A stretch of DNA of 64,000 nucleotides from Geodermatophilaceae bacterium NBWT11 (GTDB taxonomy: Bacteria; Actinomycetota; Actinomycetes; Mycobacteriales; Geodermatophilaceae). A model generated the notes under the pieces. The model made no database searches and was not told the DNA's origin. It saw only the letters and a list, made by a program, of their open reading frames with translations. Positions 9,867 to 47,940 of the stretch are shown piece after piece. The stretch spans positions 2,108,001 to 2,172,000 of the forward strand of contig CP043652.1 of NCBI GenBank assembly GCA_014218215.1, read 5' to 3'. Position numbers and translations under genes: made by a program. Position 1 is the first letter of the stretch, and each line of letters starts with the position of its first letter.

Positions 9867-9880
9867 GTTCCACGTGGAAC
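9867..9880. other. parS-like ParB binding site (intergenic)
   Basis: GTTCCACGTGGAAC is a perfect 14-bp palindrome. It is identical to the core of the bacterial parS site TGTTCCACGTGGAACA (14 of 16 with flanks). It lies in the convergent gap between 9851 and 9885. Two related sites occur at 36175 and 47828. Confidence 0.7.
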
Positions 9881-9884
9881 GCGG

Positions 9885-10157
9885 TCAGCCGGTGACGGCG
9901 TCCTCGTAGTCCTCATAGGTCGCCAGCACGTCCTCGATGTCGATGATGTCGGGGAAGTCGGCGACGTCCTGGTGCTTCTTCAGGAAGTCGATCGTCGTCA
10001 CGATGAAGTCCGGCTCGTCGTCGTCGGACACGCCCAGGCGGTCCAGCACGGCGGGGGAGAGCTTGAACCAGACCTCGACGGTCTCGCCCTGCTCGTTCAG
10101 CCGGACGACGTACTCGTGGTCGCCCTGCTCCTCGATGTCGTAGTCCTCAGCAGGCAT
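9885..10157 (-). CDS. small acidic protein of unknown function
   Basis: A 90-residue, strongly acidic protein (runs such as SDDDEPDF and DIEDVLATYEDYED) with two short beta-rich stretches (YVVRLNEQGE, VEVWFKL). There is no signal peptide, membrane segment or cysteine. I do not recognise a family. The start at 10157 (ATG) is the first in frame. It is probably cytoplasmic and may share a transcript with the MBL hydrolase gene behind it, 47 bases upstream on the same strand. Confidence 0.65.
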   Translation of the reverse strand: MPAEDYDIEEQGDHEYVVRLNEQGETVEVWFKLSPAVLDRLGVSDDDEPDFIVTTIDFLKKHQDVADFPDIIDIEDVLATYEDYEDAVTG

Positions 10158-10204
10158 GGCCGCCGCCTACCCGGGCCCGCGGGAGCCCGAACGTGACCCC
10201 GGTG

Positions 10205-10840
10205 TCACAGCTGGACCGACTCCCCGGGGGCCAGCCGGTGATAGGTCGACGGCGAGCCGGGACCCTTCTCCCCGACCATCCCGCCGATCGCCTGCAGCCC
10301 GATGTCGTTGAGCAGCCCGTCGTGCACGGCGTAGGCCTGCGGGGCGGCCACCTCGCGCAGGTAGTCGACCAGCTCGGAGACCTTCGACCAGGGCGCGTGC
10401 AGGGGCAGCAGCAGGGTGGGGACGGCGACACCGGGCGCGGTGAGCGCGTCACCGGGGTGGAAGACCTGCCCGTCGACGAGGAACCCGGTGTTCAGGATGG
10501 TCGGGACGTCGGGGTGGATGACCGCGTGGTGCTCGCCGTGCGCGGTGACCTCGAAGCCGGCCGCGGTGAAGGCGTCGCCGTCGCCGACGACGTGCACCCG
10601 GGAGCCGCCGTCGAGCTGCTCGGCCACCGAGCGGTTGGTCCACACCTCCAACGCCGGGTCGTCGGCCAGGGCCTGCTTCGTGCGGCCGACGTCGAGGTGG
10701 TCGAAGTGCTCGTGGGTGATGAGCACCGCCGAGGCGCCGGTCCAGGCGCTCTCCTCGGTCAGCGAGCCGGGGTCGAGGACCAGGCGGCGGTCGCCGTCGG
10801 ACAGGACGACGCAGGCATGTCCGTGCTTGGTGAGCTGCAT
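10205..10840 (-). CDS. MBL-fold metal-dependent hydrolase (UlaG-like)
   Basis: A 211-residue metallo-beta-lactamase-fold protein. The metal motif HEHFDH is present near residue 40, along with the early Asp-containing strand VLDPGS and later His residues (HHAVIHPD, LPLHAPWSK, AYAVHDGLL). The short UlaG-like form acts on phosphodiester or lactone bonds in relatives; the substrate is unknown. ATG 10840 is preceded by TAGCGT with a seven-base gap, so the transcript is probably leaderless. Confidence 0.85.
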   Translation of the reverse strand: MQLTKHGHACVVLSDGDRRLVLDPGSLTEESAWTGASAVLITHEHFDHLDVGRTKQALADDPALEVWTNRSVAEQLDGGSRVHVVGDGDAFTAAGFEVTAHGEHHAVIHPDVPTILNTGFLVDGQVFHPGDALTAPGVAVPTLLLPLHAPWSKVSELVDYLREVAAPQAYAVHDGLLNDIGLQAIGGMVGEKGPGSPSTYHRLAPGESVQL

Positions 10841-10847
10841 GCGCCCG

Positions 10848-10853
10848 ACGCTA
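10848..10853 (-). promoter_or_regulatory. -10 element of the MBL hydrolase gene (leaderless)
   Basis: On the minus strand TAGCGT lies seven bases before ATG 10840. This is the same geometry as several other genes in the window. No ribosome binding site is visible. Confidence 0.5.
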
Positions 10854-10914
10854 TGTCGAGGACGGGTGGAGCGCAGCGTGTTCGGCCGGCCGGTGTGCGG
10901 GGCAGGAGCCGGGC

Positions 10915-11745
10915 ATGGAACACGTGAGGCTGAACAACGGCGTCGAGATCCCGCAGCTGGGCCTGGGCACCGCCCGGGTGGAGGACGAGGAGATCCGGCG
11001 CATCGTGCGGGAGGGCCTCGAGGTCGGCTACCGGATGGTCGACACCGCGGCCAAGTACGAGAACGAGGTCGGTGTCGGGCAGGGGCTGGTCGACTCCGGG
11101 CTCGCCCGGGACGACGTCTTCGTGACCACGAAGCTGCGCGGCGCCGACCAGGGCGGCGAGTCGGCGAAGCAGGCGCTCACCGACAGCCTGCGCCGGCTGG
11201 GCCTGGACCACGTCGACCTCTACCTCGTGCACTGGCCGCTGCCGCAGCAGGACCGCTACCTCGAGTCGTGGCAGGCCCTGCAGGAGCTCACCGCGCAGGG
11301 CCTGACCCGGGCGATCGGCGTCTCCAACTTCCTGCCCGAGCACCTGGACCGGTTGGCCGCCGAGACCAGCACGGTCCCGGCGGTGAACCAGATCGAGTGC
11401 CACCCGCGCTTCCCGCAGGTCGCCCAGCGCGACGACGACGCCCGCCGCGGCATCGTCACCCAGTCCTGGTCACCGCTGGCCAACGGCGGGGACCTGCTGG
11501 GCGACGACGTCGTGACCCGGATCGCCGCCGAGCACGACGTCACCCCCGCGCAGGTGGTGCTCCGCTGGCACGTGCAGCAGGGCCTGGTCACCATCCCGAA
11601 GGCCAGCTCGCGCGAGCGCCTGGTGGCCAACCTGGACGTGTTCGGCTTCGCCCTCACCGACGCCGACCTGGCCGCGATGACCGCCCTGGACACCGGTGAG
11701 CGCACCGATCCGCGTCAGGACCCCGCCACCTGGGAGGAGTTCTGA
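10915..11745 (+). CDS. aldo/keto reductase
   Basis: A 276-residue NADPH-dependent (beta/alpha)8 oxidoreductase of the 2,5-diketo-D-gluconate reductase type. The tetrad is visible: Asp in MVDTAAKYENE, Tyr in the same segment, Lys in VTTKLRG, His in LVHWPLP. The cofactor-binding end IPKASSRERLVANLDVF is intact. AGGAG (10904-10908) lies six bases before ATG 10915. The substrate is not predictable; members reduce keto acids, methylglyoxal and other aldehydes. Confidence 0.92.
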   Translation: MEHVRLNNGVEIPQLGLGTARVEDEEIRRIVREGLEVGYRMVDTAAKYENEVGVGQGLVDSGLARDDVFVTTKLRGADQGGESAKQALTDSLRRLGLDHVDLYLVHWPLPQQDRYLESWQALQELTAQGLTRAIGVSNFLPEHLDRLAAETSTVPAVNQIECHPRFPQVAQRDDDARRGIVTQSWSPLANGGDLLGDDVVTRIAAEHDVTPAQVVLRWHVQQGLVTIPKASSRERLVANLDVFGFALTDADLAAMTALDTGERTDPRQDPATWEEF

Positions 11746-11862
11746 CACGCAGGGCGACCAGCGGGTTCCCGACCTGGAGGGCGAGAAGGTGACCAACCCG
11801 GACGGGTGAGTTCGTCAGCGACGCAACTGCACACCACACCCGCGGCGGCCGACGGTGGGGAC

Positions 11863-12072
11863 ATGAGCAGCGAACTGGTCCTCACCCTCGCCGCGGCCCA
11901 GGGCCGCAGCACCGGCCTCTGGCACGCCGTCGAGCTGCACCGCAGCCCCTCGGAGGTGGACGGCGCCTGCGAGGTCGCCGTCTGCGGCGCCCTGGCCCGC
12001 GTCGACGTCGAGCAGCGCTGGGACGGCGCGGACGACGAGTCCTGCGAGGCCTGCGCCGACCTCCTGTACTGA
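11863..12072 (+). CDS. small protein of unknown function
   Basis: A 69-residue protein from ATG 11863, preceded by GACGGT six bases upstream; the same frame is open from GTG 11806 (88 residues). It begins with a hydrophobic-mixed strand (LVLTLAAAQG). It has four cysteines, two in CEVAVC and two in CEAC near the C-terminus, a spacing that could bind a metal. I do not recognise a family. It is convergent with the histidine phosphatase gene, whose stop lies 5 bases away. Confidence 0.55.
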   Translation: MSSELVLTLAAAQGRSTGLWHAVELHRSPSEVDGACEVAVCGALARVDVEQRWDGADDESCEACADLLY

Positions 12073-12077
12073 GCCCC

Positions 12078-12737
12078 TCAGACCGGGGGCGCCACCGGCG
12101 CGTCCTCGTCGGGCACCTCGAAGGGCGCCACGTGTGCCCCGAACCGCTCGCACACCCAGCCGCCCTCGACCGGGGCCAGCACCGCGAACTCGGTGTTCGC
12201 CAGGTGCGTGGTCATCGCGAACGTCGCCGGCAGGTCCGACACCGACGTCGCCACCCAGCGGATCGCCGCCCCGTGGCTGACCACGACCACCGAGCGCGCC
12301 GGATCGGCCTCGAGCAGGCGACGGACGTCCTCGACCACCGGCAGGTAGCGGGCCAGCACGTCGTGCCCGCTCTCCCCGCCCGGCGGGGCCACCTCGGGTG
12401 CGCCGGTGAACCACTGCCCGTAGGCGCGGTCGTACTCCTCCAGCACCGGCCAGCCGGCCTGCCCCTCGAGGTCACCGACGAAGGTCTCCTGCAGCCCGTC
12501 GCGGACGTCGACGTCCAGCCCCAGCCCGGCCGCCAGCGGGGCCGCGGTCTGCTGCGCCCGCAGCGCGCGCGAGGCCAGCACCGCCGCGACGGGGATGCCG
12601 CGCAGGGTGTCCACCAGCGCGCGGGCCTGTGCCTGCCCGTCCTCGGTCAGCGGGGCGCCCGGCGGCAGCGAGTCCAGCCGCATCGCCACGTTGGCCTCGG
12701 ACTGGCCGTGCCGCACCAGCAGCAGTCGGCCGTTCAC
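12078..12737 (-). CDS. histidine phosphatase family protein
   Basis: A 219-residue phosphoglycerate-mutase-like phosphatase. LVRHGQSEAN carries the phosphorylated His near residue 8, and VVVSHGAAIR the second His. LQETFVGDLEG supplies the acid. GTG at 12737 is chosen because it overlaps the upstream hydratase stop as GTGA, implying translational coupling as the last gene of the beta-oxidation operon. The substrate is unknown; family members dephosphorylate sugars, nucleotides or cofactors. Confidence 0.88.
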   Translation of the reverse strand: MNGRLLLVRHGQSEANVAMRLDSLPPGAPLTEDGQAQARALVDTLRGIPVAAVLASRALRAQQTAAPLAAGLGLDVDVRDGLQETFVGDLEGQAGWPVLEEYDRAYGQWFTGAPEVAPPGGESGHDVLARYLPVVEDVRRLLEADPARSVVVVSHGAAIRWVATSVSDLPATFAMTTHLANTEFAVLAPVEGGWVCERFGAHVAPFEVPDEDAPVAPPV

Positions 12738-13510
12738 TCGCCGGTGAAGACCGGCGGACGCTTGGCCAGGAACGCCTCGACGGCCTCGGTGTGGTCGTGC
12801 GTCTGGCCCAGGGCCTTCTGCAGCCGACCCTCCAGCGCGAGGGTGTCGGCCAGGGAGTCCGTCGCCGCCGTCGCGAGCACCTCCTTGATCGCCCGGTAGG
12901 CCGCGGTCGGGCCGGCGGCGAGCCGGCCGGCCAGCTGCTGCGCGGTCACCAGGACCTCCTCGGCGGGGACGACGTGGTGCACCAGGCCCCACTCGCCGGC
13001 CTGCTCGGCGGTGAACGTGTCGGGGAAGAGCAGCAGCTGGGTGGCCCGGGAGCCGCCCACCGAGTGCACCAGCGCGGAGGCCAGGGCGGAGTCGCTGCCC
13101 AGCCCGATGCCGGCGAACGCGGTGCCGAACTTCGCGCCCGCCGCGGCCACCCGCAGGTCACCGCGCAGGGCGAGCCCCAGCCCGGCCCCGACGCAGGCGC
13201 CGTTGACCGCCACCACGGTGGGCACCCGCAACGCGGCGAAGGCCAGCACCATCGGGTTGTAGGAGTCGGCGACGACGTCCAGGGAGGTGCTCGCGTCCCC
13301 GTGCAGCGCCTGCACGTGCTCGGCGAGGTCCTGCCCGACGCAGAACGCCCGGCCGGAGCCGGTGAGCACCACGGCGCGCACCGACCGGTCGCCCGCCACG
13401 CCCTCGATGGCCGCGGTCAGGTCGGCGCGGGACTGCCGCGACAGCCCCGGGACCAGCAGGGTCAGGGTGGCGACGCCGTCGGCGTCCGTACGAGTGACGG
13501 TGTCGGACAT
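12734..13510 (-). CDS. enoyl-CoA hydratase/isomerase family protein
   Basis: A 258-residue crotonase-fold enzyme. The oxyanion-hole segments are visible: LTGSGRAFCVGQDLAEH, and VAVNGACVGAGLGLALRGDLRVA with FGTAFAGIGLGSDSA. The position of the usual first catalytic Glu near the GAGLGLAL helix is not obvious, so isomerase or hydratase activity cannot be fixed. ATG 13510 is preceded by a GAGGGG-type ribosome site; longer in-frame starts reach into the upstream gene. It shares an operon with thiolase and 3-hydroxyacyl-CoA dehydrogenase, giving a fatty-acid or phenylacetate-like beta-oxidation set. It resembles PaaG-type proteins. Confidence 0.88.
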   Translation of the reverse strand: MSDTVTRTDADGVATLTLLVPGLSRQSRADLTAAIEGVAGDRSVRAVVLTGSGRAFCVGQDLAEHVQALHGDASTSLDVVADSYNPMVLAFAALRVPTVVAVNGACVGAGLGLALRGDLRVAAAGAKFGTAFAGIGLGSDSALASALVHSVGGSRATQLLLFPDTFTAEQAGEWGLVHHVVPAEEVLVTAQQLAGRLAAGPTAAYRAIKEVLATAATDSLADTLALEGRLQKALGQTHDHTEAVEAFLAKRPPVFTGE

Positions 13511-13520
13511 CGTCGTCCCC

Positions 13521-14366
13521 TCAGCTGTAGTCGTGGAAGCCGCGACCGGTCTTGCGACCCAGGTCACCGGCGGCCACCTTGTCACGCAGCAGCTGGGGGG
13601 CGGCGAACCGGTCGCCCAGGGTCCCGGCCAAGTAGTCGGCGATGGCCAGCCGGACGTCGAGACCGACCAGGTCGGTGGAGCGCAGCGGGCCCATGGGGTG
13701 CCGGTAGCCCAGCTCCATGGCCTGGTCGATCGCCTCGGCGTCGGCCACGCCCTCCTCGAGCATCCGGATCGCCTCCAGGCCGAGCAGCACGCCCAGCCGG
13801 GACGACGCGAAGCCGGGGGAGTCCTTGACCACGACGTCGGTCTTGCCCAGCTCGCGCACCCACGTCCGCGCGGTCTCGACGGCGTCGGCGGCGGTCTCCG
13901 GCGCGACGACCACCTCGACCAGCTTCGACGCCGGCACCGGGTTGAAGAAGTGCATCCCGAGGAAGCGCGCCGGCCAGTCCAGTGCCGCGGCCAGTTCGGT
14001 CACCGACAGGGAGCTGGTGTTGGTGGCCAGCACCGCGTCCGGGCCGATCGCGGCCTCGGCGGCCCGCAGCACCGCGATCTTCAGCGCCGGCACCTCGGGC
14101 ACGGCCTCGACGACGAGCACGGTGTCGCCGGGCAGCTCGGCGGCGGAGTCCACCATCGTCAGGCGGGCGGCCACCTCGGCGACGGACCCGGTCAGCTTCC
14201 CGCGGCGGTCGGCCTCCTCGAGACCGGCGACGATCCGGTCGTGGGCGGCCTGCGCGGCGTCGTCGCCGGCCTCGACCACGTGCACCTGCGCGCCGGTGCC
14301 CAGCAGCGCCTGGGCGATCCCGCCGCCCATCCGCCCGCCGCCCACGACGCCGACCGGGCGGGCCAT
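13521..14366 (-). CDS. 3-hydroxyacyl-CoA dehydrogenase
   Basis: A 281-residue NAD-dependent dehydrogenase. The Rossmann motif GVVGGGRMGGGIAQAL begins at residue 5. The family motifs ATNTSSLSVTELA and FLGMHFFNPVPASKLVEVV (catalytic His region) are intact, as is DSPGFASSRLGVLLGLEAIRM. It is a single-domain form like 3-hydroxybutyryl-CoA dehydrogenase and oxidises L-3-hydroxyacyl-CoA. ATG 14366 overlaps the thiolase stop by one base. The hydratase starts 11 bases downstream, completing a three-step beta-oxidation set. Confidence 0.93.
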   Translation of the reverse strand: MARPVGVVGGGRMGGGIAQALLGTGAQVHVVEAGDDAAQAAHDRIVAGLEEADRRGKLTGSVAEVAARLTMVDSAAELPGDTVLVVEAVPEVPALKIAVLRAAEAAIGPDAVLATNTSSLSVTELAAALDWPARFLGMHFFNPVPASKLVEVVVAPETAADAVETARTWVRELGKTDVVVKDSPGFASSRLGVLLGLEAIRMLEEGVADAEAIDQAMELGYRHPMGPLRSTDLVGLDVRLAIADYLAGTLGDRFAAPQLLRDKVAAGDLGRKTGRGFHDYS

Positions 14367-15604: not shown

Positions 15605-15637
15605 CGTCGCTCCTCGCAGCTGGGACGTCCGGTGAAA

Positions 15638-15653
15638 CTGACCGGACGGTCAG
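15638..15653. promoter_or_regulatory. palindromic operator of the beta-oxidation operon
   Basis: CTGACCG-GA-CGGTCAG has perfect 7-bp arms and lies 34 bases upstream of the thiolase ATG, in the expected promoter zone. It resembles TetR-type operators of acyl-CoA-responsive regulators. No TetR gene is adjacent; two lie at 4-5 kb. Confidence 0.55.
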
Positions 15654-15696
15654 GAAAGCCTGTCGCCACCTTCGTGCACACCGATGGGCAGGGCAA

Positions 15697-15727
15697 GTCC
15701 CCGCTCCCGACCAGCGGGAGCGGGGAC
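15697..15727. terminator. strong hairpin in the thiolase/furA divergent gap
   Basis: GTCCCCGCTCCC (15697-15708) and GGGAGCGGGGAC (15716-15727) form a perfect 12-bp stem with a 7-base loop. It sits between two divergent genes, where no coding transcript should end. It may end a short transcript or insulate the two promoters. Confidence 0.45.
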
Positions 15728-15848
15728 GGCGGGCGCGCCGGTGACCTGCCCCGTCACCGGCGGACCCCGGTCGGGTGCCCCGTGGGCGACACGGTGGTCA
15801 GGGGCACCGGTCGTGTCAACGGCCGTGCAACGTTCGCCGGCCCTTTAC

Positions 15849-15877
15849 TTGACTCGTTCCAGAACAGCCCGCATGCT
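15849..15877 (+). promoter_or_regulatory. furA promoter with GTTC/GAAC operator in the spacer
   Basis: TTGACT (15849-15854), a 17-base spacer and CATGCT (15872-15877) form a near-ideal promoter. The GTG of furA follows after six bases, so the transcript is leaderless. The spacer holds GTTC-CA-GAAC (15856-15865). This resembles the conserved element upstream of actinobacterial furA genes, where FurA represses itself and katG. Confidence 0.7.
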
Positions 15878-15883
15878 CGGGGG

Positions 15884-18617
<2,734 letters not shown>

Positions 18618-24872: not shown

Positions 24873-25588
24873 GGGGTGGCGGTGCGACCGGGGGTCAGCC
24901 ACAGCGCGGCGCCCGCCAGCCCGAGGGCCGCGGTGAGCAGGAAGCCCTGGTCGCTGGCCACCAGCGGCAGCACGACCAGCACCCAGAACAGCGCCAGCCC
25001 GCCGACGCCGGCCGCGCCGACCCGCCACGCCTGCCGGCGGCTCAGCCCGCCACCGGGCACGAAGGGCACCAGGGCGACGAGGGCGGCCACCGTGGCGAAC
25101 GCCGACCAGGTGGGCACGGCCGACCACAGCGAGGTCAGTCCGAACGACAGCGCCAGGCCGAGCTGGAGGACGACGAGGGCCAGCACGCCGAGCACCGTCG
25201 CGGTGAGCCTGGCCCGGTCGGCGGTGCCGCGGTTGCGCGGTGAGACCTGGGGGGCGCGGCCGGTGTCGTGCTGGCCGGGGGGCCCGGCCTGCGGCGGCGG
25301 GCGGTCGCCCGGGAAGCCGGGGACCCAGTCCATCGGGCCGGTCGGCGCGGCCGGGTAGGCCGGGTCGTAGCCGGTGGGCACCCGGTACTCCTGCGGTCCG
25401 GTGGGCTGTCCGGGCGGCGGGCCGACGGGCTGGGACCACTGCGGCTGACGCTGCACGGGCTGCGAGTGCTGCTGGGCGACCGGCTGCTCACCGGTGGGCT
25501 GCGCGGGGATCTGCGCGGTCCGGGGCGCCCTGGGGTTCTCGGAGGGGTCGTCGGCCGGCGGGTGGGGCGGGTACGGCGGCTGGCTCAC
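24869..25588 (-). CDS. membrane protein with Pro/Gln-rich cytoplasmic N-terminus
   Basis: A 239-residue protein. Residues 1-125 are disordered, rich in Pro, Gln and Gly (PPYPPHPPADDP, QPVQRQPQWSQPVGPPPGQ). Four hydrophobic helices follow (about 128-235). Such Pro-rich-plus-TM proteins are common in actinobacteria and mostly uncharacterised. The start ATG 25588 is divergent from cinA; only 89 bases separate them. Confidence 0.75.
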   Translation of the reverse strand: MSQPPYPPHPPADDPSENPRAPRTAQIPAQPTGEQPVAQQHSQPVQRQPQWSQPVGPPPGQPTGPQEYRVPTGYDPAYPAAPTGPMDWVPGFPGDRPPPQAGPPGQHDTGRAPQVSPRNRGTADRARLTATVLGVLALVVLQLGLALSFGLTSLWSAVPTWSAFATVAALVALVPFVPGGGLSRRQAWRVGAAGVGGLALFWVLVVLPLVASDQGFLLTAALGLAGAALWLTPGRTATP

Positions 25589-25664
25589 CGGCCCACCGTA
25601 TCGGCGGCCGGGGGTGCGACCGGGGACCCGACGCCGACGGGCGGCGAGGCCCGGTCATCCCGCC

Positions 25665-25670
25665 TACGGT
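25665..25670 (+). promoter_or_regulatory. -10 element of cinA (leaderless)
   Basis: TACGGT lies seven bases before GTG 25678. No ribosome binding site is present and no -35 is obvious. Confidence 0.5.
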
Positions 25671-25677
25671 CGCAGGC

Positions 25678-26958
25678 GTGGCAGTCCGTGCAGGCATCGT
25701 GGTCACCGGCACCGAGGTCCTCACCGGGCGGGTGACCGACCGGAACGGCCCCTGGCTGGCCGAGGCGTTGCGCGCCCGCGGCGTGGACGTCGGGCAGGTG
25801 GTCGTCGTGGGCGACCGGCCGGAGGACCTGCGCTCGGCGCTGGCGTTCCTGTCGGCCGGCAACGACCTGGTCATCACCTCCGGTGGGCTCGGGCCCACCG
25901 CCGACGACCTCACCGCCGAGGTGGTCGGGGACGTGCAGGGCCGGCCCAGCGCCGTCGACGAGGAGCTGGCCACCCGGATCGGCGCGATCGTCGAGCGGTT
26001 GATGAGCCGCCGCGGTTGGAAGGTCGACCCGGAGGCGACGCTGGCCGGCACCCGCAAGCAGGCCCGGGTCCCGGCCGGGGCCCTGGTGCTCGACCCGGTG
26101 GGCACCGCGCCGGGTCTCGTCGTCCCCCCGGCGCAGGGCGACGGGCCGCCGGTCGTCGTCCTCCCCGGGCCGCCGCCGGAGCTGCAGGGCATGTGGCCGG
26201 CCGCGCTGGCCGCCGCCCCCGTGCAGGCGGTGCTCGCCCGGGCCACCGAGCTGCGCCAGGACACGCTGCGACTCTGGGGCACCCCCGAGTCCGAGCTCGC
26301 GGCCACCCTGCGCCGGGTCGACGACCAGCTCGCGGGGCTCGAGATCACCACCTGCCTGCGCGACGGCGAGCTGGAGATCGTCACCCGCTACGCCCCCGAC
26401 GCCGCGGACGCCTACGGCCGGCTCACCGACGCCGTCCGCGGCGACTTCGGCCCGACCCTGTTCAGCGAGGGCGACGACGTCGACACCCTGGTCGCGGCCG
26501 GCCTCGTCGACCGGGGCTGGACCGTCGCCACCGCGGAGTCCTGCACCGGCGGGCTGCTCGCCGCCCGGCTCACCGACCGGGCCGGCGCCTCGGCGTCGGT
26601 GCTGGGCGGGGTCGTGGCCTACGCGAACAGCGCCAAGGAGCAACTGCTCGACGTCCCGGTGGCGACGCTGGAGGCGCACGGCGCGGTCAGCGCCGAGGTC
26701 GCCCGGGCGCTCGCAGAGGGCGCCTGCGCCCGGTTCGGCTCCGACGTCGGCATCGGGGTCACCGGCATCGCCGGGCCCGGCGGCGGGACGGCGGACAAGC
26801 CCGTGGGCACCGTCCACCTGGTCGCGGTCGGCCCGGACGGGGCGTCGGCGAGCCGGTCCCTCGTCGTCCCCGGCGACCGGTCGGCGTTCCGGAAGCGGAC
26901 CGTCACCGTCGGCCTGCACGTGCTGCGCGAGCTGCTGCTGGGCGGGCCGCCCGCCTGA
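25678..26958 (+). CDS. cinA: CinA, NMN amidohydrolase / MoCF-domain protein
   Basis: A 426-residue two-domain protein. The N-terminal molybdopterin-binding-like (COG1058) domain includes VVTGTEVLTGRVTDRNGPWLAEALRARG and ITSGGLGPTADD. The C-terminal PncC nicotinamide-nucleotide amidase domain (about 265-420) includes ATAESCTGGLLAARLT and GVTGIAGPGGGTADKPVGTVHLV. It recycles NMN in NAD metabolism and may also hydrolyse ADP-ribose; it is linked to competence in some bacteria. GTG 25678 is set by the leaderless promoter and family start. Confidence 0.95.
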   Translation: MAVRAGIVVTGTEVLTGRVTDRNGPWLAEALRARGVDVGQVVVVGDRPEDLRSALAFLSAGNDLVITSGGLGPTADDLTAEVVGDVQGRPSAVDEELATRIGAIVERLMSRRGWKVDPEATLAGTRKQARVPAGALVLDPVGTAPGLVVPPAQGDGPPVVVLPGPPPELQGMWPAALAAAPVQAVLARATELRQDTLRLWGTPESELAATLRRVDDQLAGLEITTCLRDGELEIVTRYAPDAADAYGRLTDAVRGDFGPTLFSEGDDVDTLVAAGLVDRGWTVATAESCTGGLLAARLTDRAGASASVLGGVVAYANSAKEQLLDVPVATLEAHGAVSAEVARALAEGACARFGSDVGIGVTGIAGPGGGTADKPVGTVHLVAVGPDGASASRSLVVPGDRSAFRKRTVTVGLHVLRELLLGGPPA

Positions 26959-27001
26959 GCCCCACGGTTCCACGGGGGACGGATCGGGCAGGGTGGAGGG
27001 C

Positions 27002-27391
27002 ATGACCTCTGTGCGCCTGCACGCCACCGGTCCGGTCCACCCCGACGAGGCCTGGGACCGGTACCTCCACCCCGCCCGCTGGTCGGACTGGTCACCGCAG
27101 ATCCGCGGGGTGCTGACCGACGCGGTGCGGATCGACCCCGGGGTGACCGGTCGGGTGCAGGGTCCGCTGGGGGTCTCGGTGCCCTTCGTCGTCGACGCGG
27201 TGGACGACGAGGCCCGCGAGTGGACCTGGTCGGTGGACATCGGCCCGGGCACGTTGGTGCTCGTGCACTGGGTGCGCCCCGGCCCCGGCGGGGGGACGAC
27301 CACCGGCCTGCGGGTGTCCGGGCCGCTGCCGCTGGTCGTCGGCTACCTGGCGCTGGCACAGGTGGCACTGCAGCGGCTCGTGCGTCGCTGA
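27002..27391 (+). CDS. SRPBCC-family protein
   Basis: A 129-residue START/SRPBCC-like protein. It begins VRLHATGPVHPDEAWDRYLHPARWSDWSPQIRGV, the common W-x-x-W-S-P signature of polyketide-cyclase-like proteins, and ends in a long helix. ATG 27002 is favoured over GTG 26993 because CAGGGT (26989-26994) lies seven bases before it. Ligand and partner are unknown. It probably has its own promoter. Confidence 0.8.
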   Translation: MTSVRLHATGPVHPDEAWDRYLHPARWSDWSPQIRGVLTDAVRIDPGVTGRVQGPLGVSVPFVVDAVDDEAREWTWSVDIGPGTLVLVHWVRPGPGGGTTTGLRVSGPLPLVVGYLALAQVALQRLVRR

Positions 27392-35153: not shown

Positions 35154-36800
35154 ATGGACGGGGTGCCGCAGACCGCGGGGGCGTTGCTGCGTCGTGCGCT
35201 GCGCCGGCACCCCCGTCGGCTGGGGGCCGCCGTCCTCCTGCTGTCGGTGCACCAGGCCTGCGAGGCGCTGGTCCCGGTGGCCATCGGGGTCACCATCGAC
35301 CGGGCGGTGGCGACCGGGTCGGTGCCGGCGCTGATCGCCTCGCTCGGTGGCACGGCGCTGCTGTTCCTCGTGCTGTCCCAGGCCTACCGGTACGGCGCCC
35401 GCAACGTGGTCACCGGCTGGTACCGGGAGAACCACCTGCTGCGGGTCGAGGTGACCGCCCGGGTGCTGGATCCCCGCGGGCTGCGGGGCGCGCCGCCCAC
35501 CGGTGAGCTGCTCTCGATCGCCACCTCCGACGCGGAGAAGTCCGGCCGCGTGCTGGAGGCGGCCGCGATCGTCGTCGGCGGGACCACCGCGCTCGTCGTG
35601 TCCGCGGTGAGCCTGCTGCTGATCAGCGTGCCGCTGGGGGTCGGGGTGCTGCTGGGCGCGCCCCTGCTGGTCGCGGTCCTCCAGCTCCTCGCCCCCGTGC
35701 TCACCCGGCGCACCGCCACCCAGCAGGAGGACGTCGCCCGCACCGCGGGGCTGGCCACCGACCTGGTCCGCGGTGTCCGGGTGCTGCGCGGGATCGGGGC
35801 CGAGGACGCCGCCGCCGCGCGCTACCGGGCCACCAGCGCGACCGCGCTGGGCTCCACGCTGCGGACCGCCGGCGTGATCGGGGCCTACCGCGGTGCCACC
35901 GTGCTGGGCAGCGGGTTGTTCCTGGCCGCCGTGGCCGGCGTCGCCGGGGCGCTGGCGCTGGAGGGCCGGCTGTCGGTGGGTCAGCTGGTCACCGTCGTGG
36001 GGCTGGCGCAGTTCCTCGCCGAGCCGGTCGGCCTGCTGGGCTTCGCCGGGCAGAAGCTCGCCGAGGCCCGGGCCTCCGCGGCCCGGGTGGTCGGGGTGCT
36101 CACCGCGCCGCCGCTGCACCCGGCCGGGGTCGTGCCCGCCCCCGGCCCGGGTGCCCTGGAGCTGCGCGGCCACGGGTTCCACGTGGAACCGGGCCAGGTG
36201 CTGGGGGTGGTCGCCCCCGACCCCGCCGACGCGGAGGGGCTGGTCGGCCTGCTGGCCGGCCGACGCCCGGCCGACCCCGGTGAGCTGCTGCTCGACGGCG
36301 TCGACGTCGGCACGTTGGACCCCGGCACCGTCCGGGCCGCGGTGCTGGTCGAGCCGCACGCGGTGGTGCTGTTCGAGGGCACCCTCCGGACCGCGGTCGA
36401 CCCCGCCGGGGACGCCGACGACGACCGGCTGACCGGGGCGCTGGCCGCGGCCGGCGCCGCCGACCTGACCGACCTGGAGCTGGCGGTGGCCGACCGCGGG
36501 CGCTCGCTGTCCGGGGGCCAGCGGCAGCGGGTCGGGCTGGCCCGGGCGTTGCTGCGCGACCCCCCGGTGCTGGTGCTGCACGACCCCACCACCGCCGTCG
36601 ACGCGGTGACCGAGGAGACCATCGCCGAGGGGCTCACCCGGCTGCGCCGGACCCGCACCACCGTGCTGGTCACCAGCAGCCCGGCCCTGCTCGGCCGGTG
36701 CGACCACGTGGTCGTGCTGGCCGGCGGCCGGGTCCGCACCCGCGGCACGCACACCGAGCTGACCGCCGACGCCGACTACGCCGCGGCGGTGCTGCGGTGA
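35154..36800 (+). CDS. ABC exporter half-transporter with degenerate ATP site
   Basis: A 548-residue membrane-NBD fusion with six predicted helices (about 15-300). The NBD lacks key ATP residues: the Walker A region reads VLGVVAPDPADAEG with no GxxGxGKS/T. The residue after the Walker B Asp is Pro (VLVLHDPTTAVD), and the H-loop His is missing (VLVTSSPALL). The signature LSGGQRQRVGLARALL is perfect. This is the mirror image of its partner, which has the catalytic residues but a poor signature, so the two must heterodimerise. The stop overlaps the partner's GTG. A parS-like sequence lies inside it (36175). Confidence 0.9.
   Translation: MDGVPQTAGALLRRALRRHPRRLGAAVLLLSVHQACEALVPVAIGVTIDRAVATGSVPALIASLGGTALLFLVLSQAYRYGARNVVTGWYRENHLLRVEVTARVLDPRGLRGAPPTGELLSIATSDAEKSGRVLEAAAIVVGGTTALVVSAVSLLLISVPLGVGVLLGAPLLVAVLQLLAPVLTRRTATQQEDVARTAGLATDLVRGVRVLRGIGAEDAAAARYRATSATALGSTLRTAGVIGAYRGATVLGSGLFLAAVAGVAGALALEGRLSVGQLVTVVGLAQFLAEPVGLLGFAGQKLAEARASAARVVGVLTAPPLHPAGVVPAPGPGALELRGHGFHVEPGQVLGVVAPDPADAEGLVGLLAGRRPADPGELLLDGVDVGTLDPGTVRAAVLVEPHAVVLFEGTLRTAVDPAGDADDDRLTGALAAAGAADLTDLELAVADRGRSLSGGQRQRVGLARALLRDPPVLVLHDPTTAVDAVTEETIAEGLTRLRRTRTTVLVTSSPALLGRCDHVVVLAGGRVRTRGTHTELTADADYAAAVLR
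36175..36190. other. parS-like site inside the ABC gene
   Basis: GGTTCCACGTGGAACC is a 16-bp perfect palindrome and encodes GFHVEPG just before the missing Walker A. It matches the parS consensus TGTTCCACGTGGAACA at 14 of 16 positions, including the whole 14-bp core. Confidence 0.7.
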
Positions 36801-41968: not shown

Positions 41969-41978
41969 CGCGGGGGCC

Positions 41979-43166
41979 TCAGCCGCAGGAGCCGACGTCG
42001 ATGCCGTGCGCCTGCAGCCAGGGGGCCGGGTCCTGCCGGTCCTGGTAGAGGCCGGCGTAGTGCGTCTCGATGTGCAGGTGCGGCCCGGTGGACTGGCCGC
42101 GGTTGCCGACCTCGGCGATCTTCTGGCCGGTCTCGACCACCTGTCCGGCGCGGACGTCGAAGGAGTCGACGTGGCCGTAGAGGGTGATCACGCCGTTGGG
42201 GTGCTGGAGGTAGACGGCCTGGCCGAACCCGCTGGCCGGGCCGGCCTGCAGGACGACACCACCCTCGGGGGCGTAGATGGGCGTCCCGATCGGGGCGGCG
42301 ATGTCGATGCCGTAGTGCGTGGTGCCCCAGCGCGAGCCGTAGCAGGAGGTGATCCGGCCGGTGACCAGCTGCCCGGTGCCGGCGGTCGCGACCTCGGTGG
42401 CCCGGGTGGCGGCGGCGGTCGCAGCGGCCTCGGCGTCCTCGACGCCCTGGGCAGTGAGCAGCGCGACCTGGGCGTCGAGCAGCTGCTGGGCCAGCGCGGC
42501 CCGCTCGGCCTCGGCGGTGGCGTAGGAGGCCTGGGCGGCGGCGAGCTCGCCCTGCGCGGCGGCGTCGGCCTGGGCGGCGGTGGCCGCGGCGGCGTCCAGC
42601 TGGGTGACGGCGGTCTGCGCGGCGGCGTCGGCGTCCTCCTGCTGGTCCTGCACGAGCTCGACGGCCTCCAGGCGCTCGGCGCGGTCCACCCCGAGCCGCT
42701 CCAGCGTGGCGGCCCGCTGCAGCACGTCCTCGGGGCCGGCGGCGTCGAGCAGCACGGTGGCCGCACCGAGGGACTGCTGGCCCATGAAGGCCTCCCGGCC
42801 CAGGGTGGCGACGTCGGCCTCGGCCACCTCGGTGGCGGCGATCGCGGTCTGCAGCTGGGCGGCGGTCTGCACCTGGGCGGCCTGCGCGGCCACCAGGGAC
42901 TCCTGCGCGGCCCGGTCGGCGTCCGCGGCGGCCTCGGCGAGCACGGTGACCCGGGCCAGCTCCTCCTCGGCGGCGGCGACCAGCGCGGTCACCCGGTCGA
43001 CCTCGGCGGAGGCGGTCGCGATCCCGGCGGCGTCGGTGGGCACGTCCCCGGGAGCGGCGGACGCCGAGGGCGCCCAGAGGCCGGAGAGCGACAGCGCCGC
43101 GAGGGTGGCGACCAGGGCTGCCAGCAGGCGGCTCCGGTGGGTGTGCTCGGGGCGCAGCGACAGCAG
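41979..43166 (-). CDS. secreted M23 peptidase with coiled-coil domain
   Basis: About 395 residues. A signal peptide (LLAALVATLAALSLSGLWAPSASA) is followed by a long Ala/Glu-rich coiled coil (about 40-265) and a C-terminal M23 metallopeptidase with HYGIDIAAPIGTPIYAP and TGPHLHIETHY. It cuts peptidoglycan cross-bridges or activates other amidases. No ATG, GTG or TTG lies in frame near the signal peptide. The start is set at CTG 43166, with GGAG six bases upstream; CTG 43163 is equally possible. TACGGT on the minus strand (43223-43228) gives a short leader. Confidence 0.85.
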   Translation of the reverse strand: MLSLRPEHTHRSRLLAALVATLAALSLSGLWAPSASAAPGDVPTDAAGIATASAEVDRVTALVAAAEEELARVTVLAEAAADADRAAQESLVAAQAAQVQTAAQLQTAIAATEVAEADVATLGREAFMGQQSLGAATVLLDAAGPEDVLQRAATLERLGVDRAERLEAVELVQDQQEDADAAAQTAVTQLDAAAATAAQADAAAQGELAAAQASYATAEAERAALAQQLLDAQVALLTAQGVEDAEAAATAAATRATEVATAGTGQLVTGRITSCYGSRWGTTHYGIDIAAPIGTPIYAPEGGVVLQAGPASGFGQAVYLQHPNGVITLYGHVDSFDVRAGQVVETGQKIAEVGNRGQSTGPHLHIETHYAGLYQDRQDPAPWLQAHGIDVGSCG

Positions 43167-43222
43167 GACGGACTCCGTTCGAGGTGTGACGAATGGTGTG
43201 GGTGGGGCGCGGGGCCCTGGCG

Positions 43223-43228
43223 ACCGTA
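43223..43228 (-). promoter_or_regulatory. -10 element of the M23 peptidase gene
   Basis: TACGGT on the minus strand, with a GTGACA -35-like element 18 bases upstream. It predicts a leader of about 50 bases before the CTG at 43166. Confidence 0.4.
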
Positions 43229-43337
43229 GCCGGAGACACCCCCGCCTGTCACGAACGGGTAACGGACCTGTGGAGGAACCCACACCCCCGGGGGGCCACG
43301 GACGGGTGAGCCCGGCCCCGGGTCGGGTCGCGCTCAC

Positions 43338-43343
43338 TACCAT
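43338..43343 (+). promoter_or_regulatory. -10 element of the LOV phosphatase gene (leaderless)
   Basis: TACCAT lies seven bases before GTG 43351 and decides that start within a longer open frame. Confidence 0.5.
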
Positions 43344-43350
43344 CGGGCGC

Positions 43351-45537
43351 GTGGGTTCTGCACACACCCGGCTCGGACGGGCCGGCGACGCGGTCTCCGA
43401 GGAGCTGGTCGAGGCCGCCGAGGCGGCCCTGGCCGGGCCGTCGGGGGGATCCGCGGTGCTGCCGCGGGTGGTGGGCGAGGCCCCCGTCGCGGTGCTGCTC
43501 ATCGACCGCGGCACGGGCGAGGTCACCTACGGCAACACCGCCGCCCTCCGCCTGGCCGGTGACCTCGAGCTGCCGCTGGGCACCGACGCCTGGGCCGATG
43601 CCGTGGGGCTCACCGACCTCGACGGCCACCCGCTCTCGGGCACCGACGGGCCGCTCTCGGCCATCGCCACCGGGCTCCCGGTCGCCGGCGAGGCCGTGCG
43701 GGCACCGGGGGCCGACGGCGGCCCGGAGCAGGTGCTGTGGGTGACCGGTTTCCCGCTGGGCCCCGGGGTGGACGGGCTGGACCTCTCCCTCGTCGTCCTG
43801 CTGGCCGTGGACGAGGGGCCCGACGCGGCGACCGGCCTGGTGCTGCAGTCCCTGCGCGACCGGGCGGTCGTCGCCACCGACATCTGCTTCACCATCTCCG
43901 ATCCCCGCCGCCCGGGGAACCCCCTGGTGTGGGTCAACCCCTCGTTCACCCGGGTCACCGGGTACAGCGCGGAGGAGGCGCTGGGCCGCAACTGCAGCTT
44001 CCTGCAGGGCCCGGCCACCGACCCCGCGGTGGTCGCCGAGATCCGGGCCGGGATCGCGGCCCGCCGGCAGACCACGGTCACCCTGCTCAACCACCGCAAG
44101 GACGGCACCGCGTTCTGGAACCAGCTGTCGATCTCCCCGGTGTTCGACCGGATCGGTGAGCTGACCGGCTTCGTCGGCGTGCAGTCCGACGTGACGGCCC
44201 GGGTGCTGCTGGAGGCCGAGCGGGCGGCCGCGCACGCAGCGGAGCGGACGGCCCGCCGGGACGCCGAGGCCGCCCAGGAGCGGCTGCGCCTGATGGCCGA
44301 GGCCACCACGCTGCTGGCCGGCACCCTGGACACCGGGGAGCTGCTCGACCGCCTCGCCGGACTCTGCGTCCCGTCGCTGGCCGACTGGGTGTTCATCGCC
44401 CGGCTGGACGGCGACGGGGTGGTGGACGAGGTCGTGGTGCACCACACCGGTGGCGACCCGGCGCACCTGCAGGACGTGCGCTCGGCCTTCCTGGGCCGGC
44501 ACCTGCCCGAGTCGTCCCCGGCGTACGAGGCGGTGCGCACCGGGGGGCCGGTGGTCGTCCGCGACCTCCGGCCCGAGACGCTGCAGCCCTTCTCCCGCGG
44601 CCTGGACCCCCGGATGCTCGCCGAGCTGGGCACCCGGTCGCTGCTCGCCGTCCCGTTGCCGGCGCGCGGGGGCACCCGCGGGGTGATGACCCTGGTGCGG
44701 GCGATCGACGACGGCTTCTCCGCCAGCGACGTCGGTCTGGCCGTCGACCTGGGCACCCGGGCCGGACTCGCGCTGGACAACGCGCGGCTCTACGAGCAGG
44801 AGGCGTCGGTGGCCGAGGCCCTGCAGCGCTCCCTCCTGCCCGAGCTGCCGGCCATCGACGGCGTCACCGGGGCTGCGCACTACACCAGCGCCTCGGCCGC
44901 GGCCGCCGTCGGCGGGGACTTCTACGACCTGCTCGCGCTGCCCGGCGACCGGATCGGCATGGTCATCGGCGACGTGGCCGGACACGACCTGAACGCCGCG
45001 GCGACGATGGGGCAGCTCCGAGGCCTGCTCCGGGCCGGGTGCTGGGACCTCGACGCCCCCGACCCCGCCGTCGTCCTGGGTCGGGTCGACCGTCTGCTCG
45101 ACGTGCTCGACGTCCCGGGGCTGGCCACCACCGTGCTGCTGCGGGCCGACCGACCGGCCGACGGCGGGCCGTGGCGGGTGGAGTGCTCGAACGCCGGCCA
45201 CCCGCCGGTGCTGGTGCGCGGCCCGGACGGGTCGGTGCGGCCGCTCACCGAGGAGCACGACCTGCTGCTGGGCGCCGCGCCGCAGGCCCGGCGCCGCACC
45301 GCGGTGGTCGAGGTGGAGCCCGGCAGCCTGCTCATCGGCTTCACCGACGGGCTCATCGAGCAGCCCGGCGCCGGCGGCGGGCCGGCCCGGGACGTCGACT
45401 CGGGCACCGCAGCGCTGGTCGGGCTGCTCGCCGGGCTGCCGGTGGGTCTGCCCGCGCCGGACGTGTGCGAGGCGATGACCGCGCTGGTCTCCGCCCGGCT
45501 GGACGACGTGGCCTGCCTCGTCGTCGCCCTGCACTGA
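43351..45537 (+). CDS. LOV-GAF-SpoIIE phosphatase, candidate blue-light sensor
   Basis: A 728-residue protein. An N-terminal PAS-like segment is followed by a LOV domain (about 168-280). GRNCSFLQG carries the photoreactive Cys at residue 215, and NHRKDGTAFWNQLSISP with FVGVQSDVT provides the flavin-contacting Asn and Gln. A coiled linker and a GAF domain (about 314-480) follow. The SpoIIE PP2C domain (about 490-728) has metal motifs GGDFYDL, IGDVAGHD, NAGHPPV, FTDGLIE and LDDVACL. LOV domains bind FMN and form a Cys adduct in blue light, so light may switch phosphatase activity toward a STAS protein. GTG 43351 is set by the TACCAT promoter. Confidence 0.95.
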   Translation: MGSAHTRLGRAGDAVSEELVEAAEAALAGPSGGSAVLPRVVGEAPVAVLLIDRGTGEVTYGNTAALRLAGDLELPLGTDAWADAVGLTDLDGHPLSGTDGPLSAIATGLPVAGEAVRAPGADGGPEQVLWVTGFPLGPGVDGLDLSLVVLLAVDEGPDAATGLVLQSLRDRAVVATDICFTISDPRRPGNPLVWVNPSFTRVTGYSAEEALGRNCSFLQGPATDPAVVAEIRAGIAARRQTTVTLLNHRKDGTAFWNQLSISPVFDRIGELTGFVGVQSDVTARVLLEAERAAAHAAERTARRDAEAAQERLRLMAEATTLLAGTLDTGELLDRLAGLCVPSLADWVFIARLDGDGVVDEVVVHHTGGDPAHLQDVRSAFLGRHLPESSPAYEAVRTGGPVVVRDLRPETLQPFSRGLDPRMLAELGTRSLLAVPLPARGGTRGVMTLVRAIDDGFSASDVGLAVDLGTRAGLALDNARLYEQEASVAEALQRSLLPELPAIDGVTGAAHYTSASAAAAVGGDFYDLLALPGDRIGMVIGDVAGHDLNAAATMGQLRGLLRAGCWDLDAPDPAVVLGRVDRLLDVLDVPGLATTVLLRADRPADGGPWRVECSNAGHPPVLVRGPDGSVRPLTEEHDLLLGAAPQARRRTAVVEVEPGSLLIGFTDGLIEQPGAGGGPARDVDSGTAALVGLLAGLPVGLPAPDVCEAMTALVSARLDDVACLVVALH

Positions 45538-45561
45538 CCTTCAGGCCTTCAGGCCTTCAGG
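45538..45561. repeat. three tandem CCTTCAGG units with stops in all minus frames
   Basis: CCTTCAGG occurs three times in a row. Because the unit is 8 bases, the minus-strand TGA (TCA at 45541, 45549 and 45557) falls in all three frames. It sits between two convergent genes and contains the ATPase stop. Confidence 0.8.
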
Positions 45562-46033
45562 CGCGGGTGGACCTCGGGGCCGGGGTGGCACCGGGGACGC
45601 CGACGCCGGAGGTGAGCTGGGCCCACACGTGCTTGCGGTCCTGACCCACGGCGTAGCCGTAGTGGGCCGACAGCTGGGCCACCATCGGCAGGCCCATGCC
45701 GCCCAGCGCCGGGTCGCGGTCGACCGCGGGCACCGGCGGACGGTCGGGGGCCTCGTCGGACAGGGTCAGCAGCCAGCCGTCGCGGGTGGCCACGATGACG
45801 GCCTCGACGGCGCCGCCGCCGTGCCGCAGCGCGTTGGAGGCCAGCTCCTCGAAGGCCAGCAGCAGGCCCTCGCGGGCGTCCTCGGTGGAGGACGAGGTGA
45901 GGGAGGGGTGCGCCAGCCGCGCCCGCAGGTCCATCCGGACCCGGGAGGCGTCGTGCACGCTGGGCAGCTGCCACCGCCAGACGTCGCCGACGATGTCGGG
46001 CACCGGCGCAGCCGGCCAGGCGTCCTGGTTCAC
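45557..46033 (-). CDS. RsbW-like ATP-binding protein (HATPase_c_2)
   Basis: A 158-residue GHKL ATPase of the anti-sigma kind. The N box is FEELASNALRHGGG, the D box TLSDEAPDRPPV and the G box GGMGLPMVAQLS. Such proteins bind a sigma factor or phosphorylate a STAS partner. GTG 46033 is preceded by GGGGAGGA with good spacing. It is convergent with the LOV phosphatase gene and close to the STAS gene at 50.3 kb. No sigma factor gene is present in this window. Confidence 0.88.
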   Translation of the reverse strand: MNQDAWPAAPVPDIVGDVWRWQLPSVHDASRVRMDLRARLAHPSLTSSSTEDAREGLLLAFEELASNALRHGGGAVEAVIVATRDGWLLTLSDEAPDRPPVPAVDRDPALGGMGLPMVAQLSAHYGYAVGQDRKHVWAQLTSGVGVPGATPAPRSTRA

Positions 46034-46224
46034 CGTCGGTCCTCCCCGGATGTCGTGGTCCGACGGGCCGTGCCGACCCGGTGACGGCTGGTGCGCACGT
46101 TCACGGGGCCTCCACTGCTCGAAGGGCGGTCGTCGTCCATGGTGCGGGACGGCGCAGCTCCCCGCACGGGGGAGCCGGTCCTCAGGAGGTGCTGGGCGCT
46201 CCGTGGACCGGGATGATCCCCGGG

Positions 46225-47940
46225 GTGACCCCCCGCAGCACGGCCGTGCCCGGTCAGGACGTCGTGGACCTGCCGACGGCCCTGGAGCAGCTGCGCGACC
46301 GGGTGGCGGCCGTCCCGCTGGTGCTGGCCACCCCCGGTCGGGACGCCGCCGACCGCACCGCCCGGTCGGTCGTCGACCAGGTCACCGACCACCTGCTGCC
46401 CCGGGTGCGCGACATGGACGCCCCGCTGCTCACCGTGGTCGGCGGCTCGACCGGGGCCGGCAAGTCGACGCTGGTCAACAGCCTGCTCGGCGCCACGGTG
46501 ACCACCCCCGGGGTGCTGCGCCCCACCACCCGCTCACCGGTGCTGGTCTGCGCCCCGGCCGACCGCGCCGCGTTCGCCGACGACCGGGTGCTGCCCGGCC
46601 TGGCCCGCACCACCGGGGGCTCCGGCGGCCCGGGGACGCTGCAGCTGGTGGTCACCGACGCGCTGCCGGCCGGCCTGGCCCTGGTGGACGCCCCCGATGT
46701 GGACAGCGTGGTGGAGGCCAACCGCGACCTCGCCGGGCAGCTGCTGTCCGCCGCCGACCTCTGGGTCTTCGTCACCACCGCGTCCCGGTACGCCGACGCC
46801 GTGCCGTGGGACCTGCTGCGCACGGCCGCGGAACGGGGGACGGCGCTGGCCGTGGTGCTGGACCGGGTGCCCCCGGAGGCCGTGCGGGAGGTGGCCGAGG
46901 ACCTGCACGGGATGCTCGGGCGGGCCGGCCTCGCGCAGGCGGCGTTGTGGGTGGTCGAGGAGCGACCGTTGGTCGACGGGTTCCTGCCCGAGGACCAGGT
47001 CGCCCCGCTGCGGTCCTGGCTGCACGGCCTCGCCGCGGACGCCGGGGCCCGGGCCGCCGTCGTCCGGCAGACCCTGGTCGGTGCGCTGGCCAGCCTGGAC
47101 GAGCGGGTGGCGGTGGTGGGTGTCGCGGCCCAGGAGCAGGCCGCGGCGGCCGGGGCCCTGGCCGCCGCCGCCGACACGGCCTACCGGCGCGCGGAGGAGG
47201 CGGTGGACGAGGGCGTGCGCAGCGGCACCCTGCTCCGTGGGGAGGTGCTGGCCCGCTGGCAGGAGTTCGTCGGCACCGGGGAGTGGATGCGCAGCCTGCA
47301 GGCCGGGATCGGCCGGCTGCGCGACCGGGTCACCGCGGCGTTCACCGGGAAGGCGACCCCGGCCGAGGACCTGCAGGTGGCGCTGGAGTCCAGCGTGGAG
47401 CACCTGCTGCGGGCCTCGGCCGACGAGGCGGCCGAGCGCACCGTCACCTCCTGGCGCGGGCTGCCCGGCGGGGCCGCGCTGGTGGCCGGCCGGGAGCGCG
47501 AGCTGGGCACCGTCACCCCCGGCTTCACCGAGGCCGCCGCCGACGAGGTGCGCGGGTGGCAGGGCGCCGTCCTCGGGCTGGTGCGTGACGAGGGGGCCGG
47601 CAAGCGCTCCCGGGCGCGGCTGCTGTCCTGGGGCGTCAACGGTGCCGGTGCCGTGGTCATGGTCGCGGTGTTCGCGCAGACCGCCGGACTCTCCGGGGCC
47701 GAGGTCGCGGTCGCCGGCGGGACGACGGTGGTCGGCCAGCGGGTGCTGGAGGCCGTGTTCGGCGACGCCGCCATCCGCCAGCTCGCCGACCGGGCCCGCA
47801 CCGACCTCGACGCCCGGGCGGCCCGGTTGCTCCACGTGGAACACGACCGCTTCGTCGCCCTGCTGGAGCCCGCCGCGACCCCGGCGGACGCCGAGGAGCT
47901 GCGCGCCGCGGTCGCCGTGCTGGCCCGGGCCCGCTCGTGA
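46225..47940 (+). CDS. dynamin-like GTPase, first of pair
   Basis: A 571-residue GTPase. P-loop GGSTGAGKSTLVNSLLG is at residue 73, followed by PTTRSPVLV (G2 Thr) and LVDAPDVDS (G3). The G4 NKxD motif is degenerate (VVLDRVPPE). A long helical region (about 270-460) follows, with one hydrophobic stretch (VNGAGAVVMVAVFAQ). GTG 46225 is preferred over ATG 46213 because GATGAT (46212-46217) lies seven bases before it. It is coupled by GTGA to the second GTPase, as in actinobacterial dynamin pairs such as Streptomyces DynA/DynB, which act at the cell division membrane. A parS-like site lies inside (47828). Confidence 0.85.
   Translation: MTPRSTAVPGQDVVDLPTALEQLRDRVAAVPLVLATPGRDAADRTARSVVDQVTDHLLPRVRDMDAPLLTVVGGSTGAGKSTLVNSLLGATVTTPGVLRPTTRSPVLVCAPADRAAFADDRVLPGLARTTGGSGGPGTLQLVVTDALPAGLALVDAPDVDSVVEANRDLAGQLLSAADLWVFVTTASRYADAVPWDLLRTAAERGTALAVVLDRVPPEAVREVAEDLHGMLGRAGLAQAALWVVEERPLVDGFLPEDQVAPLRSWLHGLAADAGARAAVVRQTLVGALASLDERVAVVGVAAQEQAAAAGALAAAADTAYRRAEEAVDEGVRSGTLLRGEVLARWQEFVGTGEWMRSLQAGIGRLRDRVTAAFTGKATPAEDLQVALESSVEHLLRASADEAAERTVTSWRGLPGGAALVAGRERELGTVTPGFTEAAADEVRGWQGAVLGLVRDEGAGKRSRARLLSWGVNGAGAVVMVAVFAQTAGLSGAEVAVAGGTTVVGQRVLEAVFGDAAIRQLADRARTDLDARAARLLHVEHDRFVALLEPAATPADAEELRAAVAVLARARS
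47828..47843. other. parS-like site inside the first GTPase gene
   Basis: TGCTCCACGTGGAACA matches the 16-bp parS consensus TGTTCCACGTGGAACA at 15 of 16 positions. It is the closest match of the three in this window. Confidence 0.75.

Follow-up and report, generated by a model that had tools for sequence, protein, structure and literature searches.

A predicted array of chromosomal parS sites around dnaA and parAB in a Geodermatophilaceae genome, with many sites inside genes

We analyzed a 64,000-nt stretch of a Geodermatophilaceae chromosome (hereafter, the window), corresponding to positions 2,108,001-2,172,000 of the single contig of genome G000 (4,594,226 bp), in which an initial annotation had noticed three parS-like sites. 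Based on sequence comparisons, these sites are almost certainly chromosomal parS of a known kind, on which the only ParB of the bacterium is predicted to land. The window likely carries three usable sites and a decayed one on the dnaA-side arm of an array of 24 sites. The features of parS found here are a match to the consensus, clustering around oriC, the presence of parS beside linked parA-parB genes, the ParB recognition residues, and conservation at the DNA level. The sites are thus ordinary in kind; the noteworthy part is the family-wide expansion of the array, the traceable gain and decay of its members, and their coding context. The genome itself is close to Klenkia (Geodermatophilaceae). 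Three genomes of its genus match K. marina, K. taihuensis and K. terrae in their site coordinates wherever the two lists overlap, and we therefore refer to this genus as Klenkia.

Distribution of the sites around dnaA and parAB

The three sites, at 9867, 36176 and 47828, were all present in the window. The first two are exact copies of the 14-bp C-type palindrome GTTCCACGTGGAAC, while the third, TGCTCCACGTGGAACA, differs at one of 16 positions from the 16-letter word TGTTCCACGTGGAACA, against which the two exact 14-mers score 14/16 each. When up to two mismatches in the 14-mer were allowed, the window gave four matches versus 0.13 expected, and four or more were obtained in 0 of 100 shuffles. 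The fourth match, GTTCCACGGGGGAC at 26967, has two mismatches and was absent from the initial annotation.

In the whole genome, the exact 14-mer occurs 11 times, always between positions 1,708,064 and 2,144,189, i.e., in 436 kb around parAB/dnaA. With up to one mismatch, there are 24 sites (13 with one mismatch), all located between 1,708,064 and 2,508,688, which represents 17% of the chromosome. The reversed pattern, used as a control, yielded no match in the whole genome, either exact or with up to one mismatch. If the sites are treated as independent, 24 points scattered evenly would all fall inside some arc of such size with a probability of ~8e-17. At up to two mismatches, the genome yields 41 places versus 11 for the reversed pattern; because this control rises to 11 and only 4 of the 17 places with exactly two mismatches fall inside 1.70-2.51 Mb, the two-mismatch words are mostly chance.

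We used dnaA and parAB as the origin marker. The sole DnaA match in the genome (2,064,942) and the sole ParB_N match (2,058,340), whose gene adjoins parA, both lie inside the site-bearing arc, and the window covers the segment 43-107 kb away from dnaA. Instead of the even scatter that the initial annotation had named as the contrary case, the copies of the 14-mer are confined to this one arc, and its proposal of a near-origin, ParB-loaded segment is supported. The array spans ~800 kb around parAB/dnaA, with 23 of the 24 sites within 566 kb; 15 are on the parB side of dnaA and nine on the window side. By eye, sites at ~14, 46 and 84 kb seem symmetrically placed on both sides. Additionally, two parS sites 56 bp apart are found at the 5' end of parA, inside its longest possible open reading frame (ORF). 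Since the codon model scores this stretch as non-coding, the pair is probably located just upstream of the true parA start.

The ParB of this genome appears canonical. Its closest named relatives by identity are those of Klenkia (86-89%), followed by Modestobacter, Blastococcus and other Geodermatophilaceae, and its best solved relatives are Spo0J/ParB proteins. The helix-turn-helix (HTH) reads GRSR...NT...SAGHAR and includes the residues that correspond, by motif, to Caulobacter R173 and G201, described in the available part of one report as absolutely conserved in ParB (PMC7383237). By analogy with known ParABS systems, ParB would load on each site with cytidine triphosphate (CTP) and then slide onto the neighbouring DNA, it would recruit SMC, and ParA would pull the ParB-bound origin region, leading to segregation. 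That ParB binds these sites and spreads from them, that SMC is loaded there, and that the sites may differ in their roles, we infer from known ParABS biology; the sites would seed partition complexes because this is established for ParB.

Conservation, gain and decay of sites among relatives

The flanks of the 24 sites were aligned, unmasked, to stretches of nine family genomes. In 52 of 64 comparisons, the exact word was found no more than 40 bases from the position given by the alignment, versus 12,090 of 84,824 (14%) for overlapping control 14-mers handled in the same way. This comparison covers 10 of the 24 sites; for the other 14, the relatives' stretches were absent or the alignment was under threshold. 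The sites appear to be under selection as DNA and conserved beyond their surroundings.

We also grouped orthologous sites by their offsets from the parA pair in 11 genomes with stretches, of which 10, from four genera, are array-bearing; the eleventh is G012. All 10 array-bearing genomes have the pair at parA and the site at -14 kb; the -46 kb and +43 kb sites are present in nine, and the -62, +75 and +84 kb sites in six each. Most distal G000 sites had no orthologs in this grouping, where few relatives' stretches covered those positions. Invariance inside the groups is partly circular, given that they are defined by site presence, a flaw that the 52/64 comparison does not share. Every site-bearing member of the -46 and +84 groups encodes glutamate with GAA, a codon that accounts for ~4% of glutamate usage in the family training set (0.0023 vs 0.0503 for GAG). 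Sites inside genes thus seem to force unusual codons, the members of a group being related and not independent draws.

The sites of the window have different histories. The 36176 site is exact in five of the six other Klenkia, and the sixth (G005) has GTTCCATGTGGAAC. The 14-mer of the 47828 site (GCTCCACGTGGAAC, starting at 47829) is identical in three of the six (G001, G002 and G005); the other three (G003, G004 and G006) lack it at the aligned place, as does G009, which belongs to another genus. According to our reading of the aligned bases, the Klenkia without the word encode LLAAE or LLAGE versus LLHVE; the mismatch itself keeps the leucine codon CTC, while an exact site would give phenylalanine (TTC). 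At the 26967 place, the exact 14-mer is found in all six other Klenkia; because these keep it where the window genome has GTTCCACGGGGGAC, we regard the latter as an apparent parS in decay. No parS was found at the aligned place in G009. Finally, the 9867 site is absent at the aligned place in five of the six other Klenkia, the five whose alignment spans it. Some sites of other genera lie near a Klenkia site without being orthologous to it (e.g., in G009, ~400 bases off at +81 kb); for such near-miss sites in G009, G010 and G011, it is as if the slot had been kept while the word was replaced.

Other origins for these words can be considered. CACGTG is generally known as a common operator core, and the palindromes might be operators of a transcription factor with this core, their clustering reflecting a regulon near the origin. 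Nevertheless, the word equals the parS consensus and has two copies at parA, and its confinement to the origin arc is the behaviour of ParB sites. Moreover, 12 of the 20 G000 sites scored with the codon model lie inside genes, and the 9867 site lies between two gene ends; as these are not promoter positions, we consider an operator function very improbable. A further reading accepts only the exact palindromes as functional and takes the one-mismatch words (GCTCCACGTGGAAC at 47828, and GTTGCACGTGGAAC) as chance products of coding sequence that encodes LHVE with a GAA codon. These words are indeed imperfect, and 7 of the 13 in G000 encode LHVE. However, all 13 are located in the same 17% of the chromosome, and the reversed control yields none. 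Moreover, three other species retain the 47828 word, and species without it encode other residues; this reading is therefore unlikely. A word repeated so often within a single region might also suggest spreading by a mobile or repeated element, but aligned orthologs share their flanks between species, 100 family sites fall into 31 separate neighbourhoods without shared flanks, and the sites are found in different genes and reading frames, which makes such an element extremely improbable.

Some observations do weigh against the interpretation of the window sites as functional parS of an origin region. The initial annotation had proposed to map the window relative to dnaA, parAB and the switch in GC skew; the genes located it, but the switch was uninformative. 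Between 1.95 and 2.17 Mb, the cumulative GC skew is weak and takes several turns, with its minimum ~24 kb past dnaA, and it was dropped as an origin marker for these reasons. The lack of an ortholog of the 9867 site among the Klenkia compared, together with the decay at 26967, suggests that not every site is indispensable, and imperfect sites, including that at 47828, may bind weakly. DnaA boxes, searched with a consensus and one mismatch allowed, numbered no more than four in any 2-kb bin and were not used as an origin marker.

The coordinates of the sites and their neighbouring genes are given in Table 1. A large ORF on the same strand (47937-49502) overlaps the end of the Dynamin_N gene. 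The window also encodes, at 42580-45537, a protein of 985 aa that in NCBIfam best matches models of LOV/PAS blue-light receptors and kinases, with a lowest E of 3.1e-41; the highest-ranking of these matches fall under the cut-offs of their models.

Table 1. Candidate parS sites of the window and the genes next to or around them (window positions)
Feature	Position	Strand	Distance from dnaA	Context
parS, exact C-type palindrome	9867-9880	none	+53 kb	33-bp gap where two genes converge
alpha/beta-hydrolase gene	8391-9851	+		left neighbour of the 9867 site
ORF without Pfam match	9885-10157	-		right neighbour of the 9867 site
Apparently decayed parS, GTTCCACGGGGGAC	26967-26980	none	+70 kb	between cinA (25240-26958, +) and an ORF (26993-27391, +)
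parS, exact	36176-36189	none	+79 kb	inside ABC-transporter gene; reads GGG TTC CAC GTG GAA CCG (GFHVEP)
ABC transporter gene	35154-36800	+		hosts the 36176 site; membrane and ATPase domains, PF00664, PF00005
Imperfect parS, TGCTCCACGTGGAACA	47828-47843	none	+91 kb (from 47829)	inside Dynamin_N-domain gene; reads CTC CAC GTG GAA (LHVE)
Dynamin-like protein gene	46081-47940	+		hosts the 47828 site; PF00350 E 2.9e-8; no NCBIfam match

Array size, coding context and ParB across the family

We counted GTTNCACGTGNAAC in 200 genomes of the order. The 28 Geodermatophilaceae genomes carry 8-23 sites, and 27 of them have at least 10, whereas the 172 genomes of other families carry 0-15, mostly 1-9, with at least 10 in three and none in six. 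Named Klenkia have 16, 19 and 21 sites, Modestobacter 20 and 23, and Blastococcus 13 and 14; among the other named genomes, the counts are 4 in Amycolatopsis, 3 in Kibdelosporangium, 4 in Kribbella, 2 in Mycobacterium, 1 in Nocardia, 5 in Micromonospora and 10 in Saccharothrix. Fifteen sites were counted in G054 (family f4) and 12 in each of two genomes of genus g47. In a sample of 197 genomes across the class, with G000 as its only Geodermatophilaceae member, the exact C-type word occurs in 30, with 11 copies in G000 and at most five elsewhere. One member of the family, G012 (locus L190; 79% complete), has two sites only, both T-type and at parA, on a stretch that is a 15.6-kb contig, and may represent the pre-expansion state.

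The coding context of the sites was scored with a codon-model classifier; outside the family, we pooled two runs, which were trained on their respective loci and differed slightly in the cut-offs for training. We excluded sites less than 150 bp from the end of a stretch, duplicate stretches and any word not covered by GTTNCACGTGNAAC, and a first gene caller's figure of 20/24 coding sites for G000 was discarded because it counted the parA-side pair as coding. Outside the family, coding sites are 0 of 178 for words that are T-type in both halves, 2 of 77 for mixed C/T words and 22 of 49 for C-type words; one GG and one GT site are both non-coding. Inside the family, they are 32 of 86 (C-type), 11 of 14 (C/G) and 0 of 9 (C/T), and 28 further sites in named family loci, all at parA, are non-coding.

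On either strand, one frame of the T-type word GTTTCACGTGAAAC contains a TGA, and another frame needs TTT and AAA, each ~0.0001 of the codons in the family training set, while the C-type word has no stop in any frame. A tentative reading, which we consider possible rather than probable, is that the Geodermatophilaceae centromere came to be compatible with coding: the variable parS letter would have changed from T to C (or G), and the array would have grown through genes. With the new letter, the in-frame TGA would have been lost together with the TTT/AAA codons, which are very rare, and new parS could then have arisen inside GC-rich genes, so that the array would have grown from the parA-side pair to ~20 sites over hundreds of kb. 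Imperfect sites (GTTGCAC, GCTCCAC) would be compromises that keep the leucine codon, and the ParB DNA-binding domain would have changed along the same lineage.

Several points count against this coding-compatibility proposal. The contrast by raw sites is inflated by related loci. When grouped by similar flanks, the 178 T-type sites make up 10 neighbourhoods (one with 147 sites), none coding; the 49 outgroup C-type sites make up 25, 11 of them with a coding member, and 12 of the 22 coding sites come from two groups, one of eight and one of four. Inside the family, the 100 sites of C-type or C/G correspond to 31 neighbourhoods, 18 with a coding member. Per neighbourhood, the one-sided chance of the coding contrast is ~0.01 by hand arithmetic, and statistical support for the presumed spread through genes by C-type compatibility is modest. 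Two confounders exist: most outgroup loci are centred on parB, where parS is intergenic anyway, and C instead of T also follows from high G+C. Moreover, C-type alone is insufficient for a large array, because other families have C-type sites in genes without one. In family f34, 13 of 15 sampled genomes have exactly one exact C-type site, and eight such sites form one coding neighbourhood.

We compared 18 family ParBs with 29 others, derived from 46 of 80 loci plus the G000 protein; L031 (metagenome-assembled genome, Frankiales) was placed by identity. Three positions of the DNA-binding region separate the family fully: S202 (P in 29/29 others), K216 (0/29) and T219 (R in 29/29). Further separating columns are found outside this region, and outgroup ParBs, too, frequently have K at the position that matches Caulobacter 184. 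We rejected the possibility that these substitutions are required for C-type sites. G246 (family f43) has five exact C-type sites and an ordinary ParB that retains P and R at two of the HTH positions specific to the family, and the ParB of G012, intermediate between the family and outgroup types, has S202 without K216 and T219 in a genome with T-type sites. The substitutions track lineage and are not needed for C-type sites.

Relation to known systems

A large array is not new in itself: in the part of PMC8743542 available, streptomycetes reach similar numbers with the general consensus, averaging 22.8 parS per chromosome (range 11-65 in 20 streptomycetes), asymmetrically about oriC. Streptomyces ParABS thus resembles the present case, with ~20 sites near oriC in an actinobacterium, but the palindrome of the present array is C-type and genes contain many of its sites, the gene context having been scored on the G000 side of this comparison. 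Multiple parS sites also occur in Myxococcus xanthus, an unrelated lineage. Noc binding sites (NBS) are alike in involving a ParB-family protein and a similar palindrome, but differ at two half-site positions, as stated in a portion of PMC7383237; G000 has a single ParB_N match, with R and G at the two switch positions, and no ParB-family protein with the Noc specificity residues Q/K/K/R was found beside ParB in this genome. Other families of the same order also have parS just upstream of parA, but mostly 1-9 sites, largely T-type or mixed, which in most of the 29 outgroup loci lie within a few kb of parB (in loci of 21 kb only).

In the open-licence PubMed Central (PMC) literature, we found no paper for Geodermatophilaceae with parS; among the matches listed there for Geodermatophilus with parS, none was by title on parS arrays in Geodermatophilaceae, and among those listed for parS coding compatibility (codon, stop codon, synonymous), there was no paper on the subject. 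In its accessible sections, a 2020 review considers as open questions why the number of parS differs although a single site often suffices, and what causes sites to cluster, and describes a zone of roughly 600 kb in two proteobacteria in which extra parS are tolerated (PMC7333895).

While the site type is well known, the size and placement of the array in Geodermatophilaceae looked unusual. The 566-kb span of 23 of the 24 sites is close to the ~600-kb tolerance zone given for the two proteobacteria in that part of the review (PMC7333895). The family, with its large arrays, can be set against few-site relatives, and positions can be traced by species, with a conserved site (36176), gained ones (9867 and 47828) and one apparently decaying (26967). 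The coding and non-coding parS types offer a concrete, testable constraint on where centromere sites evolve.

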